A stretch of 64,000 nt of DNA, taken from positions 882,588 through 946,587 of the forward strand of contig NZ_OBEJ01000001.1 in assembly GCF_900215575.1 (NCBI RefSeq), read 5' to 3'. The translations under genes and the position numbers were made by a program. The notes beneath the pieces were generated by a model. The model made no database searches. It worked only from the letters and a program-made list of their open reading frames with translations, and was not told the DNA's origin. How positions within the stretch are numbered: position 1 is the first letter of the stretch; the number at the start of each line of letters is the position of its first letter. Shown here one piece after another: positions 1,504-9,247 of the stretch. Source of the stretch: Natronoarchaeum philippinense. GTDB taxonomy: Archaea; Halobacteriota; Halobacteria; Halobacteriales; Natronoarchaeaceae.

Positions 1504-3666
1504 ATGAGGTTTCGGGGCGACGACCGCGCTGTTGTCATCCAGATCGGCGCAGTGATACTGCTCGCTGCGATCGTGCTTGCGATGACCGGGTATCAGGCGA
1601 CGGTCGTCCCCGACCAGAACAGCGAGATCGAGTTTAATCACAATCAGGAGGTCCACGGGGAGTTACAGAACCTCCGGAACGGCATCGTCTCGACGGCGAG
1701 TGGGGGACAGGGCGGCGCCTACTCGATCACGCTCGGAACGAACTACCCAGCCCGCGCGCTCTTTGTCAACCCGGCGCCGCCGAGTGGCCAACTCAGGACG
1801 CTGGGAACGGGACAGGTCGTGATCGAGAACGCCGACGCGACGGGCGACGGCGGCGTGAGCGAGTACTGGACCGGCGCAAATCGGACGGTCAACACGACTA
1901 CCTTTGCCTACCAGCCGAGCTACAACGAATGGGACAACGCCCCGACGACGATCTACGAGCACTCGCTGCTGTACGACGCCCACCCGAGCGGCGCCAACAC
2001 GACCGTCACTGATCAGGTGCTCGTCGACGGCGACGAAATCACGCTTGTGACGCTCGCGGGTGAACTCCAGAAATCCTCCAGCGCGACGGCGTCGGTGAAC
2101 GTTCGGACGGTGAGCGCGTCGACGAACGCGATCAGCGTCGAAAGCACTGCCAGCAACCCGATCCGGCTCACCGTGCCGACGCGGAGTCCGAGCGTCTGGA
2201 ACAAAACGCTCGGTGAGAACGCCAGCATCGTCAACAACCAGAGCGCCGGTGACTACGTTCTCTCGACGATCGAACTCGATCCCGGCAAGTACGACCTTCG
2301 GATGGCACGCGCCCGGGTCGGTGAGACATCCAGCGGCTCGACACCCGATACGGGCGCCGAGTATCTCGTCGAAGTTGACGACGGCGGGCCGGTTCCACGC
2401 GGCGAACCGACCACGGTCGTCGCGGAGGTTCGGAACCGACACAACAACCCGGTTTCAGACGCCGAGGTTCGCTACACCGTCGGCGGCGGCACGGTACAAA
2501 CTGCAACGGCCGGTACCGACGGACGCGTTCGGATCGACGCCGCGGGCGGAGACACCGTCGAAGCTTGGTTCAACGCGAGCGATTTCACCAGCGCACAGAG
2601 CTACCAGAAGCTCTCGATCGAGGTCCCGGTCGGAGGTGGCGGCGGGAGCAGCGCCTACGCCGTGAGCTGGGACCTGACGGCGATCGAAGATCGAAACGGC
2701 GCCGGCATGGACTGTTACTCGTCGAACTCGACGTGCGTCTTCGACGTCACTGAAAGCGGGAGCCGAGAGGCCCCGCTCGTGATGGGGACCGATCCCGTCG
2801 CCGACGGGGCGACCGTCGAGTACGCGATCAACGACACGTCGGTGGCCGAACTCGATCCGGACGTGGGACGCACGGACGGATCGGGTGAGAACACGACCGT
2901 CCTCAATGCGAGCCAGTCCGGGACGGTCACCGTGTACGCCTCAAGCGGGAGCGACGGCGACGCTCTCGACGTGAAGATCCAGAACTACGCCGGTCTGACG
3001 CCGACGCTGTCGATCGACGACGTGCGAGGGTTCGGTGAGTACGACAACACTCACGCCTATCAGGCGTCGATCGACGTTTCGGAGCTCAGCGGGGTTCAGA
3101 CGCAGAACCTCAAGGTTCGCCTCCGTGTCGAGGGCGATACCGAGGGCGTCGTCTACCAGAACACCCGTTCGCTTAGCGAGATTTCCGGCGAGCAGGTCAC
3201 CGTCGAGTTCAACGATGTCGATCAGCTCACCGCCGACAACTACACGTACACGGTGACCGCAGACGCCGACAATGCGAATCAGGTCCAGCAGACCGGAACG
3301 TTCCGAGTCCTGACCGCGTTCTTCGATAGCCTCGACGCGACGGTCACGAGCCAGCGCACTGGCGGCCCGAACAACGCGGAAGAGGCGTCAGAAGTCACGT
3401 TCAGCTACAGGCTGTCCTCGGATGCAAGCGGCGTCGACGTGCGGGCTGAGGACTCCACTGGTGCGGTCGCCACAGCAACGGGGCCCGGCGGCTCCGGACA
3501 GGAACAGACCGTGACCGCTACCTTCGGCGGCGGCGGCCAGCCGACCGACAACTACCCGCTCACAGTTCGGGCTGATATTCCGGGCGGTGAGTGTTACACC
3601 GCGACGATTCAGAACGGCGGCGATACGCCGACGCTCGCCAACGGCGACTGGACGGAGTGCTCATGA
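1504..3666 (+). CDS. Large pilin-like cell-surface protein (first of tandem pair)
   Basis: This 720-residue protein has a charged start (MRFRGDDR) and one hydrophobic segment (residues about 9-28, AVVIQIGAVILLAAIVLAMT) followed by GYQATVVPDQN. That layout resembles the N-terminal domain of archaeal type IV pilin-like proteins. The remainder is beta-rich, Thr/Ser/Asn-rich and acidic, as in secreted haloarchaeal surface proteins, with many Asn-X-Ser/Thr sequons. Cysteines occur as a close pair (MDCYSSNSTCVF) and a C-terminal pair (GECYTA...TECS), probably disulfides. The downstream neighbour is a paralogue sharing the first ~100 residues and the C-terminal module. Role is inferred: surface-exposed adhesin or minor-pilin-like component. 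Confidence 0.65.
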   Translation: MRFRGDDRAVVIQIGAVILLAAIVLAMTGYQATVVPDQNSEIEFNHNQEVHGELQNLRNGIVSTASGGQGGAYSITLGTNYPARALFVNPAPPSGQLRTLGTGQVVIENADATGDGGVSEYWTGANRTVNTTTFAYQPSYNEWDNAPTTIYEHSLLYDAHPSGANTTVTDQVLVDGDEITLVTLAGELQKSSSATASVNVRTVSASTNAISVESTASNPIRLTVPTRSPSVWNKTLGENASIVNNQSAGDYVLSTIELDPGKYDLRMARARVGETSSGSTPDTGAEYLVEVDDGGPVPRGEPTTVVAEVRNRHNNPVSDAEVRYTVGGGTVQTATAGTDGRVRIDAAGGDTVEAWFNASDFTSAQSYQKLSIEVPVGGGGGSSAYAVSWDLTAIEDRNGAGMDCYSSNSTCVFDVTESGSREAPLVMGTDPVADGATVEYAINDTSVAELDPDVGRTDGSGENTTVLNASQSGTVTVYASSGSDGDALDVKIQNYAGLTPTLSIDDVRGFGEYDNTHAYQASIDVSELSGVQTQNLKVRLRVEGDTEGVVYQNTRSLSEISGEQVTVEFNDVDQLTADNYTYTVTADADNANQVQQTGTFRVLTAFFDSLDATVTSQRTGGPNNAEEASEVTFSYRLSSDASGVDVRAEDSTGAVATATGPGGSGQEQTVTATFGGGGQPTDNYPLTVRADIPGGECYTATIQNGGDTPTLANGDWTECS

Positions 3667-3723
3667 CGCCGGCACAGACCGAAGCTACGGTCGGTGGCGT
3701 CACACAGGAGGTGACTGTCACTC

Positions 3724-6700
3724 GTGTCGTTTGATGCAGACACCCGAGCGCAGGTCGTCCAGATCGGCGCGGTGTTGCTGTTCGCCGCGCTGATTCTGGC
3801 GATGACCGGGTATCAAGCGACGGTCGTCCCCGACCAGAACGCCGAGGTCGAACTCTCCCACAGCGACCAAGTACAGAGCGGAATGGTCGAGCTTCGCAAC
3901 GCCATCGTTTCTCCGGACAGTCGCACACAGCGGGACGTGACGGTTCCGCTGGGAACGCGATACCCCGAGCGGACGCTGTTTATCAACCCAGCTCCGCCCT
4001 CCGGGAAGTTGCGCACGATCCGGGGGGAGATGAACGTCTCGAACGTATCGGTGGCCGGCGAAGCCGGCGACTACTGGGGATCCAGTCGGACGTTCTCGAC
4101 TGGACTGATCACGTACCGACCCAACTACAACGAGCTCGACGACCCGGCGACGACCGTGATTGAGGGGTCGCTGGTGTACAACCGATTCGAGAATGCCGAG
4201 CGGACGCTCGCCGACCCGACGTTCATCGACGGAACTCGGATCTCGCTGGTCGCGCTGCAGGGCTCGGTGAGCGCCTCGACGACTGGAAGCGAGCGGATCA
4301 GCGTCTACACGGGGCAACGACCGACCAGAACCGTCTCGGTAACGGGCGAAGCCGCAGGCGAAAACGTCACCGTCAGTCTGCCGACGCTGCGTTCGGAATC
4401 CGACTGGGCCCAGTACCTCGATGCGGCCGATCACGTCAGCGACTGGAGCGTGGCTCAGACCCCGGGATCGAGCTACGGCACGCTCGAAATCGTCTTCGAG
4501 CGACTCGACGAGAGCGGCCAGCCGATCGAGTACGACCTGAGCGTCGCCGAGGTCGGGGTCGGCGAGGAGGTCGAGTCAACGGGAGCCGCGTACGTCACGC
4601 CAGTCGGGAGCGGCGTCGAGACGGTACAGTCGGGACAGATGACAGACGTGACTTTCGAGGTGCGCGGGGAGTACGACGACCCGATCGCCGACCGGCAGGT
4701 GAACCTCAGCGTCATCGAGGGACAGGGGACGCTGATCGGCGACGACGGGGACGGACAGACTGTCACCGCGACGACCGACACCGAGGGACGAGTCGAAGTT
4801 ACGTACGTCGCCGGGGATGACGAAACCGGTGACGTGACGATCGGTGCGAGCGTCTCGACGACCCCGGCTGTCGGCGGCCCGTTTGACGACACGACGGCCA
4901 CGAACGCGTCGCGGGCGCTCCGTGTCGTCGCCGGCGGTAGCGGCGATTCGGGCGCATACGCGGTCGAGTGGGCCGGCGACGTAATCGAGGTCGTGCCGGG
5001 CGAGGACGGCATCGACGCCCGAGCGACGGCCGGCGTCGACGACGGGCCGGTCGAGTTCGCCGTGCAAAATCGGAGCATCCTGCTCCGAAACGACGCCGCG
5101 ACCGCCGACCGGTTCAGCGACGGCAACGCCTCGTTCGTCTTCGGCGTCTCCGAGACGGTCGCACGTGGATCCGAGTGGTACGCGTACGTCTCCAGTCGGG
5201 GGAGCGGCGACAGGCTCGCCGTTCGCGTGCTCGAAGCCGCCGGGTTGCTCTGGGACACGCAAGCCGACTGGGCGGATTCGAGCCGCGAGAACGGCGTCGT
5301 CCACGCCGTCTTCGGGGACCGGCAGAAGGATACGATCCAACTCGGCTACGGGACCGAAGAGAGCGGGCTGGTCGGCTACTGGCCGCTCGACGACGCCGGA
5401 GCGGCTGGCGTCTCGGACGTGTCCGGTTCCGGCAACGACGGAAGCCAATCGGGCGGTCTCGGAAACGCGAGCGGCCTGTTTGGAACCTCGGCGTACGACT
5501 TCGACGGCAGCGACGACGCCGTCACCGTCCCCCACGACGAGAGTATCGAAATGAGCGACGAGGACGCCGTAACGGTCTCGGCGTGGGTGAAAAAAGACGC
5601 CGCGCAGTCGGGCTGGGTCGCCATCGCACAGAAGAGCGACCAGTCGTACAACCTCCAGTTCGAGAACGGCAACCAACCGACGTTCACGATCTACGACGGG
5701 GACTGGAACATCGTCAACAGTGGCGTCTCCCTCTCGAACGATCAGTGGCACCACGTCGTCGGTACGTACGACGGCAGTGAGGCGCGTATCTACGTCAACG
5801 GCACGCTGAAGGGAACGCAAGCAGTGTCCGGAACGCTGGCGAACGCGAGCGGATCGCCGCTGGGCATCGGCGAGAACCTCGCAACCGGCGGGCGCAATCT
5901 CGACGGGACGATCGACGAACTCCGGCTCTACGACCGGGCACTGAGCGACGCCGAAGTGCAGGCGCTGTACGGCGTCCAGTCGGGGCAGTACACGAGCGGC
6001 TGGCGCCGGGCGTCCCGGTCGCTGGCGGTCGAGAATCTGGCGCTAACGAACGTTTCGGCGTCGATCGGTGGCGGCACGATCACCGTCACCGTCGAGTCAG
6101 ACACGAACGGTGATGGGATACCCGACGAGACGAGCGACCCAGTGCCGATCGCGTCCTACGATACGTACGACCTCGATGGACTCTCGACGGACGCCGACCG
6201 GTTCCGGCTGCGAGTCGAGATGACTGGGGACACACCGACGCGATCGCCAGTGCTCTCGCGGGTGGAGGTCGCCGAGGAAACCGTGATCCCTGCGACGTTC
6301 GAGGTGACCGATCTCGGACCCGCGACGGCAAGCCCCGACGAGCGGTTCAATGCAACAGTCAGCGTCGAGAACACCGGCGACCGACCGGGTAACGCGACGG
6401 TCGCGTACGATCCGGACTGGCGGTCCGTCGCAGTGGTCGACCAGAACCTCGCCCACGGAACCGAGATCGCCGATACGCTCCGGAATGAGCTCCCGTCCGA
6501 TTACGACGTCCGCGCCCTTCGGACCGGCGCCGCAATCGACGAGATCGACCACCACGACGTATTCGTCGTGCAACGATTTGGCAACGAGACTGTCGCCGCC
6601 GAGTTCCAGCAACAGCTCGCGGACGCCGACGCCGGCGTTGTCTATCTCGATCAGTGGGACGAGCGCGGTAACGAAAACAACTACCCGTCGGAAACCTACA

Positions 6701-7833
6701 GCGACGCGATCCGGCGACTCGCTAACAGTTCTGTCCGCGGCGATCCACCGACGTACGACGACGAGTTTAGGGGGACAGCACCGCCCGAGTTCACCGTGCA
6801 ACAGGACCACCCGATCTTCGACGGCGTCGCCGGCGTCGGGGAGACGATCACCGTCCACAACGCGGCAGAAGCCGATCGGGCTTGGTTCAGCGGCTACAAC
6901 GGGACGACGCTGGCGACCGTGAGAGATCAGTCCGGTGGCGCTGGCGGCCCCTCGATCGCCGTTAACGACAGTCGCGGTGAAGTGTTGCTTGGCGCCGGTC
7001 GGTCGAACTACGTTCCAAACTCGGCGTACACGGCTGACTCGAATCAGATCCTCGCTAACGCCGTCACCTACGTCGACGAACAAGTGGCACGGACCGAGAC
7101 GGTACAGCTCGATCCCGGTGAGCGCGGGACGGTGACGTTCCCGACGGTCGCACCGTCGTCCGGCGGCGAGTACGCACAGACAGCAAGCACTGCGAACGGA
7201 TCGACGACCGAGTCGATGACCGTCACGACCGCCGAACAGTTCGGCTCGTTCTCGGGGGCCGTGTTCGACAACGCGACGGGGAACCCGATCACAGATGCTG
7301 AACTGACCGTAACTGTCGACAGTCAGAACTACACGGCGACGACGGACGCGAACGGGAACTACGAGGTCAGCGGCGTCCCGGCCGGAACGCACGACGTGAC
7401 GGTCGACACCGCGCGGTACAAGGCCACCGGGCCGTTCGAGGTCACCGTCCAAAACGGCTCGACGACGACCGGCGTCGACGTTCACCTGTCGCCCGAGCCG
7501 CCGGAGTTCGAGTCGTTGAGCGCCACTGCAAACCAAGACGGGACGTTCTTCGGAATTCCGTACAGCCAGTCGGTGACCTACGAGTACGACGTGCTCGGTG
7601 CTGAAGACGTGGATTCGATGACGTTCACCGTCTTCGATGCCGATGGCAACCAGATCGGGACGACGACCACCACGTCACCGGCCAGCCCCACGACGGTCAC
7701 CCTCGACAGTGGTCAACTCCAGTCGGTCACCGCCAGGGTCGAGATCGACTCGGCGGCCGGACAGCGCTGTCTGGAGGGCTCTGTCGCACCGGGATCGACG
7801 ATCAGTCGCTCGTCGTTCTCGTCGTGCGGGTGA
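3724..7833 (+). CDS. Giant modular pilin-like surface protein with LamG, amidotransferase-like and carboxypeptidase-regulatory-like domains
   Basis: This 1369-residue protein starts at GTG 3724, ten bases after a strong Shine-Dalgarno (GGAGGTGA, 3707-3714). It has the same N-terminal hydrophobic segment and GYQATVVPDQN motif as the preceding gene. Modules in order: N-terminal paralogous region (1-~100); an Ig-like/Big-1-like repeat (~292-402, DDPIADRQVNLSVIEGQGTL); a LamG/concanavalin-like domain (~549-749, VGYWPLDD ... IDELRLYDRALSDAEV); a domain resembling class I amidotransferase/ThuA folds (~900-1119, VAVVDQNLAHGTEIADTL ... HPIFDGVAG); a carboxypeptidase-regulatory-like domain (~1174-1256); and a C-terminal two-cysteine module. 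It is probably co-transcribed with the gene 57 nt upstream. Likely a surface adhesin or glycan-binding protein; this is inference from domains. Confidence 0.65.
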   Translation: MSFDADTRAQVVQIGAVLLFAALILAMTGYQATVVPDQNAEVELSHSDQVQSGMVELRNAIVSPDSRTQRDVTVPLGTRYPERTLFINPAPPSGKLRTIRGEMNVSNVSVAGEAGDYWGSSRTFSTGLITYRPNYNELDDPATTVIEGSLVYNRFENAERTLADPTFIDGTRISLVALQGSVSASTTGSERISVYTGQRPTRTVSVTGEAAGENVTVSLPTLRSESDWAQYLDAADHVSDWSVAQTPGSSYGTLEIVFERLDESGQPIEYDLSVAEVGVGEEVESTGAAYVTPVGSGVETVQSGQMTDVTFEVRGEYDDPIADRQVNLSVIEGQGTLIGDDGDGQTVTATTDTEGRVEVTYVAGDDETGDVTIGASVSTTPAVGGPFDDTTATNASRALRVVAGGSGDSGAYAVEWAGDVIEVVPGEDGIDARATAGVDDGPVEFAVQNRSILLRNDAATADRFSDGNASFVFGVSETVARGSEWYAYVSSRGSGDRLAVRVLEAAGLLWDTQADWADSSRENGVVHAVFGDRQKDTIQLGYGTEESGLVGYWPLDDAGAAGVSDVSGSGNDGSQSGGLGNASGLFGTSAYDFDGSDDAVTVPHDESIEMSDEDAVTVSAWVKKDAAQSGWVAIAQKSDQSYNLQFENGNQPTFTIYDGDWNIVNSGVSLSNDQWHHVVGTYDGSEARIYVNGTLKGTQAVSGTLANASGSPLGIGENLATGGRNLDGTIDELRLYDRALSDAEVQALYGVQSGQYTSGWRRASRSLAVENLALTNVSASIGGGTITVTVESDTNGDGIPDETSDPVPIASYDTYDLDGLSTDADRFRLRVEMTGDTPTRSPVLSRVEVAEETVIPATFEVTDLGPATASPDERFNATVSVENTGDRPGNATVAYDPDWRSVAVVDQNLAHGTEIADTLRNELPSDYDVRALRTGAAIDEIDHHDVFVVQRFGNETVAAEFQQQLADADAGVVYLDQWDERGNENNYPSETYSDAIRRLANSSVRGDPPTYDDEFRGTAPPEFTVQQDHPIFDGVAGVGETITVHNAAEADRAWFSGYNGTTLATVRDQSGGAGGPSIAVNDSRGEVLLGAGRSNYVPNSAYTADSNQILANAVTYVDEQVARTETVQLDPGERGTVTFPTVAPSSGGEYAQTASTANGSTTESMTVTTAEQFGSFSGAVFDNATGNPITDAELTVTVDSQNYTATTDANGNYEVSGVPAGTHDVTVDTARYKATGPFEVTVQNGSTTTGVDVHLSPEPPEFESLSATANQDGTFFGIPYSQSVTYEYDVLGAEDVDSMTFTVFDADGNQIGTTTTTSPASPTTVTLDSGQLQSVTARVEIDSAAGQRCLEGSVAPGSTISRSSFSSCG

Positions 7834-7909: not shown

Positions 7910-9247
7910 ATGACAGCCGTCGGTATCGACGCGATCGAGATCCGGACTGGCAGACTCAAACTCGACCTCCCGGGCACGTTCGCGCCCGAGCAGGGAGAAG
8001 ACCCCGAGAAGTACACGAAGGGACTGGGACTACACGCCAGTTCGTTCCCCGACAGCTACGAGGACATCGTGACGATGGGCGCCAACGCGGCCCACCGTCT
8101 GATGGAGCGCAAGGGGCTCGAGCCCGAGGATATCGGCCGGATCGACGTTGCGACCGAGAGCGCGTTCGACAACTCCAAGCCCGTCTCGACGTACATCGCG
8201 GGCTGTCTCGAACAGGTGTACGACGGGGACTTCCACCACGCCAACAAGGGCGAGCGCAAGTTCGCCTGCGTCGCGGCGACCCAAGCCGTCGACGACGCGT
8301 ACAACTGGATCCGGGCGGGCCGAAATCGCGGCCGCGCGGCGCTGGTGATCGCCACAGACACCGCGCTGTACGCCCGCGACGATCCCGGCGAGGCGACCCA
8401 AGGCGCCGGCGCCGTCGCCATGCTGATCGACGAAGACCCGAGCGTCGTCGAGATCAGCACCGAGCAGGGGTACGGCAGCGCCGACGAGACGGACTTCCTC
8501 AAGCCCCAACAGCAGTTCCCCAGCGTCGACGGCAAGCGTTCGATGCAGGTGTACCTCGCACGGATGCGCGAGGCGCTGGAGGACTTCGAGCACCTCTCGG
8601 GCGACACCCATCCCGACGACTACGCGTACATCCCGTTCCACACGCCGTTCCCGGGGATGGTCCGCAAGGCGGGCCTGCTCGGATATCGCCACATGATCCG
8701 GGACACCGGCGTCGAGGACGAACTGGCCGAGGAGATCGGCCGCCAGCCCCGACGTGAAGCGTTCGACGACGAGGAGGCCTACCAAGAGGCGATTCGGGAG
8801 TACGTCGACGCACTGGCCGAGACCGAGCGCTATCAGGAGTGGTACGGCAACACCGTCGAACCGACGCTGTCGATCTCGCGCGAGGTCGGCAACTGGTACA
8901 CCGGCTCGGTCCACATCGCTCGCGCGAGCGCGCTTCGGGACGCCGACGAGAAGGACATCGATCTGACGGGCCAAGAGCTACTGGTCGGTTCCTACGGCTC
9001 GGGCGCGCAGGCCGAGATTCACGCCGAGACGGTCCAAGAGGGCTGGCGCGAGGAGATCGAGGCGATGAACGTCGACGAGCAGCTCGATCGACGCTACGAC
9101 ATCTCCTTCGAGGAGTACGAGGAGATCCACGACGCCCACAACCACGATGTCGACTCCGACGTGGAGGAACTGACGACGCCCGAAAACGAGTTCGTCTTCG
9201 ACGGCTGGGGCCGCATGGGCGAGCGCAAGTACCGGTACGTCGAGTAA
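7910..9247 (+). CDS. mvaS: Hydroxymethylglutaryl-CoA synthase
   Basis: Condenses acetyl-CoA with acetoacetyl-CoA to HMG-CoA, the committed entry to the mevalonate pathway that supplies isoprenoid chains for archaeal lipids. The protein is 445 residues, the usual haloarchaeal length. Catalytic residues by motif: Glu83 (ATES), the acylated Cys120 (KFACVAATQA) and His244 (IPFHTPFPGM). The GSYGSGAQAEI motif near residue 365 closes the thiolase-like fold. It stands alone on the plus strand with its own TATA box and converges on an HTH regulator 34 bp downstream. Assignment is secure. Confidence 0.95.
   Translation: MTAVGIDAIEIRTGRLKLDLPGTFAPEQGEDPEKYTKGLGLHASSFPDSYEDIVTMGANAAHRLMERKGLEPEDIGRIDVATESAFDNSKPVSTYIAGCLEQVYDGDFHHANKGERKFACVAATQAVDDAYNWIRAGRNRGRAALVIATDTALYARDDPGEATQGAGAVAMLIDEDPSVVEISTEQGYGSADETDFLKPQQQFPSVDGKRSMQVYLARMREALEDFEHLSGDTHPDDYAYIPFHTPFPGMVRKAGLLGYRHMIRDTGVEDELAEEIGRQPRREAFDDEEAYQEAIREYVDALAETERYQEWYGNTVEPTLSISREVGNWYTGSVHIARASALRDADEKDIDLTGQELLVGSYGSGAQAEIHAETVQEGWREEIEAMNVDEQLDRRYDISFEEYEEIHDAHNHDVDSDVEELTTPENEFVFDGWGRMGERKYRYVE

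Follow-up and report, generated by a model that had tools for sequence, protein, structure and literature searches.

Genes A and B lie side by side on the forward strand of a 64,000-nucleotide stretch of the Natronoarchaeum philippinense genome (contig NZ_OBEJ01000001.1, positions 882,588 to 946,587), referred to here as the window, and probably encode modular (minor) type IV pilin-like proteins that are processed by the prepilin peptidase PibD and display exchangeable binding modules. Gene A (1504-3666, ATG start at 1504) encodes 720 residues and gene B (3724-7833, GTG start at 3724) 1369 residues; a first-pass annotation of the window had described two adjacent proteins of these lengths, and both open reading frames are present. 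A search of 194 haloarchaeal genomes, drawn evenly, with the first 239 residues of A found the N-terminal family in 169 of them and in 56 of 65 genera, usually as one copy. The surface gene is almost universal in haloarchaea and has a fixed place on the chromosome. No description of it was found in the open-licence literature on Taf proteins, DUF7289/DUF2150, and haloarchaeal modular pilins, and with due caution both the gene family and the traffic of display cassettes outlined below appear to be undescribed. The set that we studied consists of 91 proteins, from 88 loci and the window, and is a non-random collection of best hits, multi-copy genomes, and the results of a pattern search.

Residues 1-498 of A are homologous to residues 1-508 of B (window positions 3724-5247), with 35% identity and an E-value of 1e-64 in BLASTP, and the two proteins diverge after A498/B508. 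The first-pass annotation had pointed to the hydrophobic N terminus and to the motifs GYQATVVPDQN and LGT.YP.R.LF.NPAPPSG.LRT as common to both, which is correct, but its statement that the middles differ completely does not stand, given the extent of this homology. The shared part begins with the conserved family scaffold (A residues 1-285, 1504-2358), which a low-confidence model predicts to be a helix at residues 7-66 followed by an all-beta region. Next come a Big_1-like immunoglobulin (Ig) domain (A residues 288-378, 2365-2637; a sub-threshold PF02369 match in A, at 0.008) and a second Ig-like domain with an internal cysteine pair at 404/411 (A residues 380-498, 2641-2997). Both are common to A, B, and outside relatives, and Big_1 matches occur in 59 of the 91 family members. 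Beyond the shared part, A has an Ig/CARDB-like domain of its own (2998-3303; weak DUF5305 and CARDB matches). B has a LamG display cassette (residues 509-850, 5248-6273) made up of a W..DW...FGD...D.I.LGY lead, a LamG domain (PF13385 at 594-746, 3e-37), and a YTS tail, then a CARDB-like domain (residues 848-1175, 6265-7248; CARDB 0.005) that is interrupted by a further domain at residues 895-1125, and finally a CarboxypepD_reg domain (7249-7488; PF13620, 2.8e-12). The LamG and carboxypeptidase-regulatory-like domains had thus been recognized correctly.

Signs of exchange come from six pairs of relatives in which the first 280 residues are 84, 83, 78, 78, 76, and 75% identical (loci L090/L092, L048/L052, L064/L069, L045/L047, L081/L088, and L058/L065, in that order), yet nothing beyond residue 400 can be aligned. 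Between these close relatives the scaffold has been kept while the outer part has been wholly replaced; other pairs are alike along their full length. The outer parts in the family include PKD, CARDB, LamG, CarboxypepD_reg, PA14, and FG-GAP domains and solenoid-like repeats. An adhesin, or a surface that viruses or other cells recognize, would be expected to vary in this way, with a constant inner scaffold and a replaced outward part.

The cassettes themselves are shared with other types of protein. Residues 509-876 and 856-1233 of B match, in order, a 1458-residue secreted protein from another haloarchaeal genome (G142), at 50% and 38%, respectively. The N terminus of that protein is TafC-like (6e-7), and a neighboring gene is TafE/TafA-like; the protein (L172:1044-6336) contains LamG, CARDB-like, and CarboxypepD_reg parts and a possible galactose-binding domain. 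Genome G142 also has a tandem pair of pilin-like genes, the second of which shares 714 codons (2.1 kb) with the TafC-like gene, with 86% amino acid and 84% DNA identity and a ratio of nonsynonymous to synonymous substitution rates (dN/dS) of 0.12, whereas identity in the flanks is 26%, the level expected by chance. Taken together, these values are direct evidence that a display block has been transferred from one scaffold to another, unrelated one, and that purifying selection maintains it. The first-pass annotation had seen in the tandem genes a surface display scaffold diversified in a modular way, and that idea is well supported, both by near-identical scaffolds with unalignable outer parts and by a cassette common to unrelated scaffolds, in this one case at 84% DNA identity.

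A unit of ~350 residues, consisting of a W..DW...GD...LGY lead, LamG, and a tail, is carried by A/B-type proteins in three genomes, by Pilin_N proteins in two, by proteins with an Arch_flagellin domain in two, by DUF7266 proteins in two, and by one secreted protein of 3541 residues. On the 5' side of the unit, the carriers that are not of the A/B type have no convincing similarity to B (best E-value 0.007). We give even chances to the broader proposal that a common pool of cassettes recombines among A/B-type pilin-like, Pilin_N, archaellin-domain, DUF7266, and TafC-like scaffolds and that the locus between TatD-DUF2150 and HMG-CoA synthase is a conserved docking site for adhesin replacement. 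If this is true, binding specificity could evolve independently of filament type.

At loci L217 and L218, LamG cassettes are fused to an archaellin-family (PF01917) N terminus that by eye is FlaG/ArlG-like rather than that of a filament archaellin. The only other match to the LamG cassette in the genome of N. philippinense itself, on contig 4 (L151:752-3097), is a protein of 781 residues that combines a LamG-like domain with what by eye is a glycosidase (levanase-like) domain; it is unrelated to the pilin-like scaffold. The LamG cassette of B also matches positions 149-362 of the TafC family fimbrial protein model (NF052521, 4e-20), and the equivalent part of the TafC-like G142 protein at ~52%, but in B the N-terminal region of TafC is absent and a pilin-like one takes its place. 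Assignment of B as a TafC fimbrial protein was rejected, with a score of 72 bits, in the LamG part only, against a cut-off of 410.

The N termini of both proteins conform to the rule for archaeal prepilins, which have a charged residue at position -2 and glycine, alanine, or serine at -1, before a hydrophobic H-domain (PMC4371748). Residues 1-36 of A (1504-1611) comprise a 7-residue leader, a putative prepilin-peptidase site at R8-A9, and a 27-residue uncharged H-domain, and residues 1-36 of B (3724-3831) likewise contain a short leader, an R8-A9 site, and an H-domain. In a census of the family, position -2 is arginine in 91 of 91 proteins and position -1 is alanine, glycine, or serine in 47, 43, and 1, respectively, with a leader of 6-8 residues in 81 of the 91. 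Sites in this census were placed by the motif in 84 proteins and by hand in 7, with three proteins left out, so the cleaner evidence is provided by two motif-blind alignments, in which Arg8 is invariant (42 of 42 and 49 of 49 rows). Some family members also match established profiles, DUF7289 in 13 of 91 and Pilin_N (PF07790) in 6 of 91 (E below 0.01), and the archaellin/pilin model TIGR02537 in 2 of the 49 scanned, the Pilin_N and TIGR02537 matches of these paralogues being weak. The invariant R-[GAS] and the Pilin_N and DUF7289 matches among paralogues favor the earlier suggestion that the N terminus serves as an anchor or assembly signal. The same genome encodes an A24 (PibD-like) peptidase, T2SSF proteins, and Pilin_N pilins.

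In the mechanism that we propose, the class III signal, with R-A before the 27-residue H-domain, would direct each protein to the Sec pathway and be the target of PibD cleavage. The H-domain helix would then hold the protein in the membrane, from where it may be incorporated into a type IV pilus-like filament assembled by PilB/PilC from other loci; the large size of A and B suggests a position at the tip, or in a short pseudopilus, rather than in the filament body. The predicted order is a long N-terminal helix and beta head, a string of Ig-like domains, and then the exchangeable outer part, which would contact surfaces, glycans, or other cells and which in B would consist of the LamG cassette, the split CARDB domain, the CarboxypepD_reg domain, and the cysteine-pair module. 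The gene itself keeps to a single conserved locus, and recombination replaces its outer part from a stock of cassettes that other archaeal surface scaffolds use as well. Several observations weigh against this reading. A and B far exceed major pilins in size, they match no pilin profile (PF07790 and TIGR02537 included), no PilB/PilC gene was seen adjoining them, and neither proteomic nor genetic evidence was found for any family member. The structural model of the A scaffold, built from ten sequences, gives helix 7-66 followed by strands but is weak (mean pLDDT 56), and Foldseek returned only generic multi-Ig proteins for it, with TM-scores below 0.25. A single-sequence AlphaFold model of A was discarded (pLDDT 38), and the profile designated A1 gave no significant match to sequences in the PDB. 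Haloarchaeal pilins are commonly encoded away from PilB/PilC (PMC4858521).

The very large ectodomains and the lack of pilus-assembly genes at the locus would also suit a protein that is cut by PibD and never polymerized. A and B would then be monomeric stalks held in the membrane, with their outer domains reaching through the S-layer, in the manner of the class III-signal binding proteins of the Sulfolobus bindosome, and binding proteins are indeed among the substrates of PibD (PMC4371748). What makes this unlikely is that conservation in the family continues past the cut site, in the H-domain and the next helix (Q13, G15, Q31, P36, N39, E43, and H46), which suggests specific packing, and that Pilin_N proteins are encoded nearby.

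A separate question is how the pair arose. The first-pass annotation implied that the gene had recently been duplicated in tandem in this strain and that the copies had then swapped domains, and the adjacency of A and B on the same strand, the likeness of their ends, and the run of three consecutive family members in another genome (L109) would fit such a history. It is nevertheless improbable. Of the relatives that have such a tandem, the nearest is G142, and both genes have their own counterpart there. In the tree, copy 1 of G142 and the single gene of G034 join A (100/92 support), and copy 2 of G142 joins B, with only moderate support (93/73). Since the G142 copies group separately with A and B, the duplication or acquisition took place before the two genera diverged, and on this tree the pair is older than the strain. 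At the DNA level, A and B are similar over only 98 bp around the H-domain (85%), which gives no sign of recent conversion between them, and GC and GC3 do not distinguish the middle of B. The pair is present in only two of nine family genomes, so that the pair may also have been lost elsewhere or the B lineage transferred.

Modular pilins are already known in bacteria, and the archaeal family appears to be analogous to them. In Streptococcus sanguinis, the type IV pilins PilB and PilC carry a vWA module and Ig-like and ConA-like lectin modules, respectively (PMC8179133, PMC9934059). The resemblance lies in a pilin module that bears a class III signal and onto which functional modules are grafted, in highly diverse architectures, and it extends to detail in that the Ig-like and ConA-like lectin parts of PilC have counterparts in the Ig-like domains and Laminin_G_3 (ConA-like) domain of B. 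On the other hand, A and B have an archaeal R-[GA] signal, lack the bacterial E5, measure 720-1369 residues, and occupy a conserved pan-haloarchaeal locus, and any filament or ligand of theirs is putative. By the definition of PMC8179133, the LamG, CarboxypepD_reg, Big_1, and CARDB domains would make them modular pilins, provided that the N terminus counts as a pilin module. Also comparable are haloarchaeal minor-pilin families such as arCOG02911 (PMC4858521), which have a FlaFind-type signal, are all-beta, and are prone to duplication and length variation, but are shorter, at about 250-550 residues, and belong to PilB/PilC systems. With respect to the Pfam families DUF7289 and Pilin_N, matched by 13 and 6 of the 91 members, A and B match neither, and lacking a Pilin_N or TIGR02537 match they are named pilin-like rather than Pilin_N members. 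That same lack could indicate ordinary ectoproteins on an uncut signal anchor with a superficial resemblance to pilins, which, given that R-[GAS] is invariant among the 91 proteins and that paralogues match Pilin_N, DUF7289, and TIGR02537, is highly improbable. The family also opens a general question to testing: do archaea extend what a pilus can do by adding modules to pilins, as bacteria do, and are these modules exchanged among filaments of unrelated types?

Both proteins end in a beta module with a terminal cysteine pair (3310-3663 in A, 7495-7830 in B), the cysteines lying 24 and 2 residues from the C terminus in A and 21 and 2 in B. Direct comparison of the C-terminal parts of A and B was unsuccessful, with no match in phmmer and only repetitive pairings, none of them convincing, in blastp, and the modules were therefore tested with an outside profile built from six C-terminal cysteine modules of other haloarchaea, A and B being excluded. 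This profile finds A (9e-6) and B (1.3e-7) at their exact C termini, its weaker matches to other Ig-like stretches starting at 1e-4, and the homology, although remote, is real. The first-pass annotation had proposed this shared module and made its reading depend on homology between the two copies, which profile comparison thus detects and pairwise comparison does not. In an alignment of eight rows, one of which comes from a neighboring Pilin_N protein and replaces the L095 module, the two cysteines are the sole invariant positions. The module with its cysteines occurs in 8 of the 91 family proteins, and the A orthologue in G142 has the module without the cysteines. The further idea of the C terminus as a cap is therefore not general; the cap is real in A and B and optional across the family.

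The domain at residues 895-1125 of B, which had been called amidotransferase-like, has no match in Pfam or the PDB. A class I amidotransferase was rejected, as there is no fold match, no Cys-His-Glu triad, and no conserved cysteine in 12 homologues. Many haloarchaea have large secreted proteins in which domains of this type recur, often adjoining CARDB and CarboxypepD_reg units. Those at L173-L185 are secreted proteins of ~1100-2000 residues, some with two such domains, and by eye some start like subtilisin propeptides.

The usual order at the locus is TatD, DUF2150, the pilin-like gene, and HMG-CoA synthase, all of which are on the forward strand in the window: a TatD-like open reading frame of 176 residues (97-627; PF01026, 6e-14), the DUF2150 gene directly 5' of A (787-1374; PF09920, 4e-66), A and B, and the HMG-CoA synthase gene (7910-9247; PF01154/PF08540). 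Homologues of both DUF2150 and HMG-CoA synthase are near 65 of the 91 family genes, one of the two is near 13, and neither is near the remaining 13, which are mostly divergent paralogues located elsewhere. Where another gene intervenes between the family gene and HMG-CoA synthase, it encodes a Pilin_N protein in 10 of 10 genomes scanned (9 above the curated cut-off), and PKD, malectin, fn3, or LamG modules are present in several of these proteins too. A TATA-like TTTTTATT (1471-1478, +), ~26 nucleotides 5' of the ATG of gene A, suggests a leaderless transcript for this first cistron. A full Shine-Dalgarno-like motif, AGGAGGTGA (3706-3714, +), lies 9 nucleotides 5' of the GTG of gene B and ~40 nucleotides past the stop of A, pointing to a probable bicistronic A-B transcript with a translationally signaled second cistron. 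DUF2150, a conserved archaeal protein, is encoded directly before the pilin-like gene in most of the haloarchaea examined, and a functional link between the two is possible. No relative was found in phage records, and plasmid records yielded six, all haloarchaeal. Two of the family copies are on a Halovenus salina plasmid (NZ_CP112975.1; L011 and L013), as short open reading frames of 276 and 424 residues that are possibly decayed or reduced. Genome G040 has three consecutive divergent family members away from the usual locus (L109:2232-6798).

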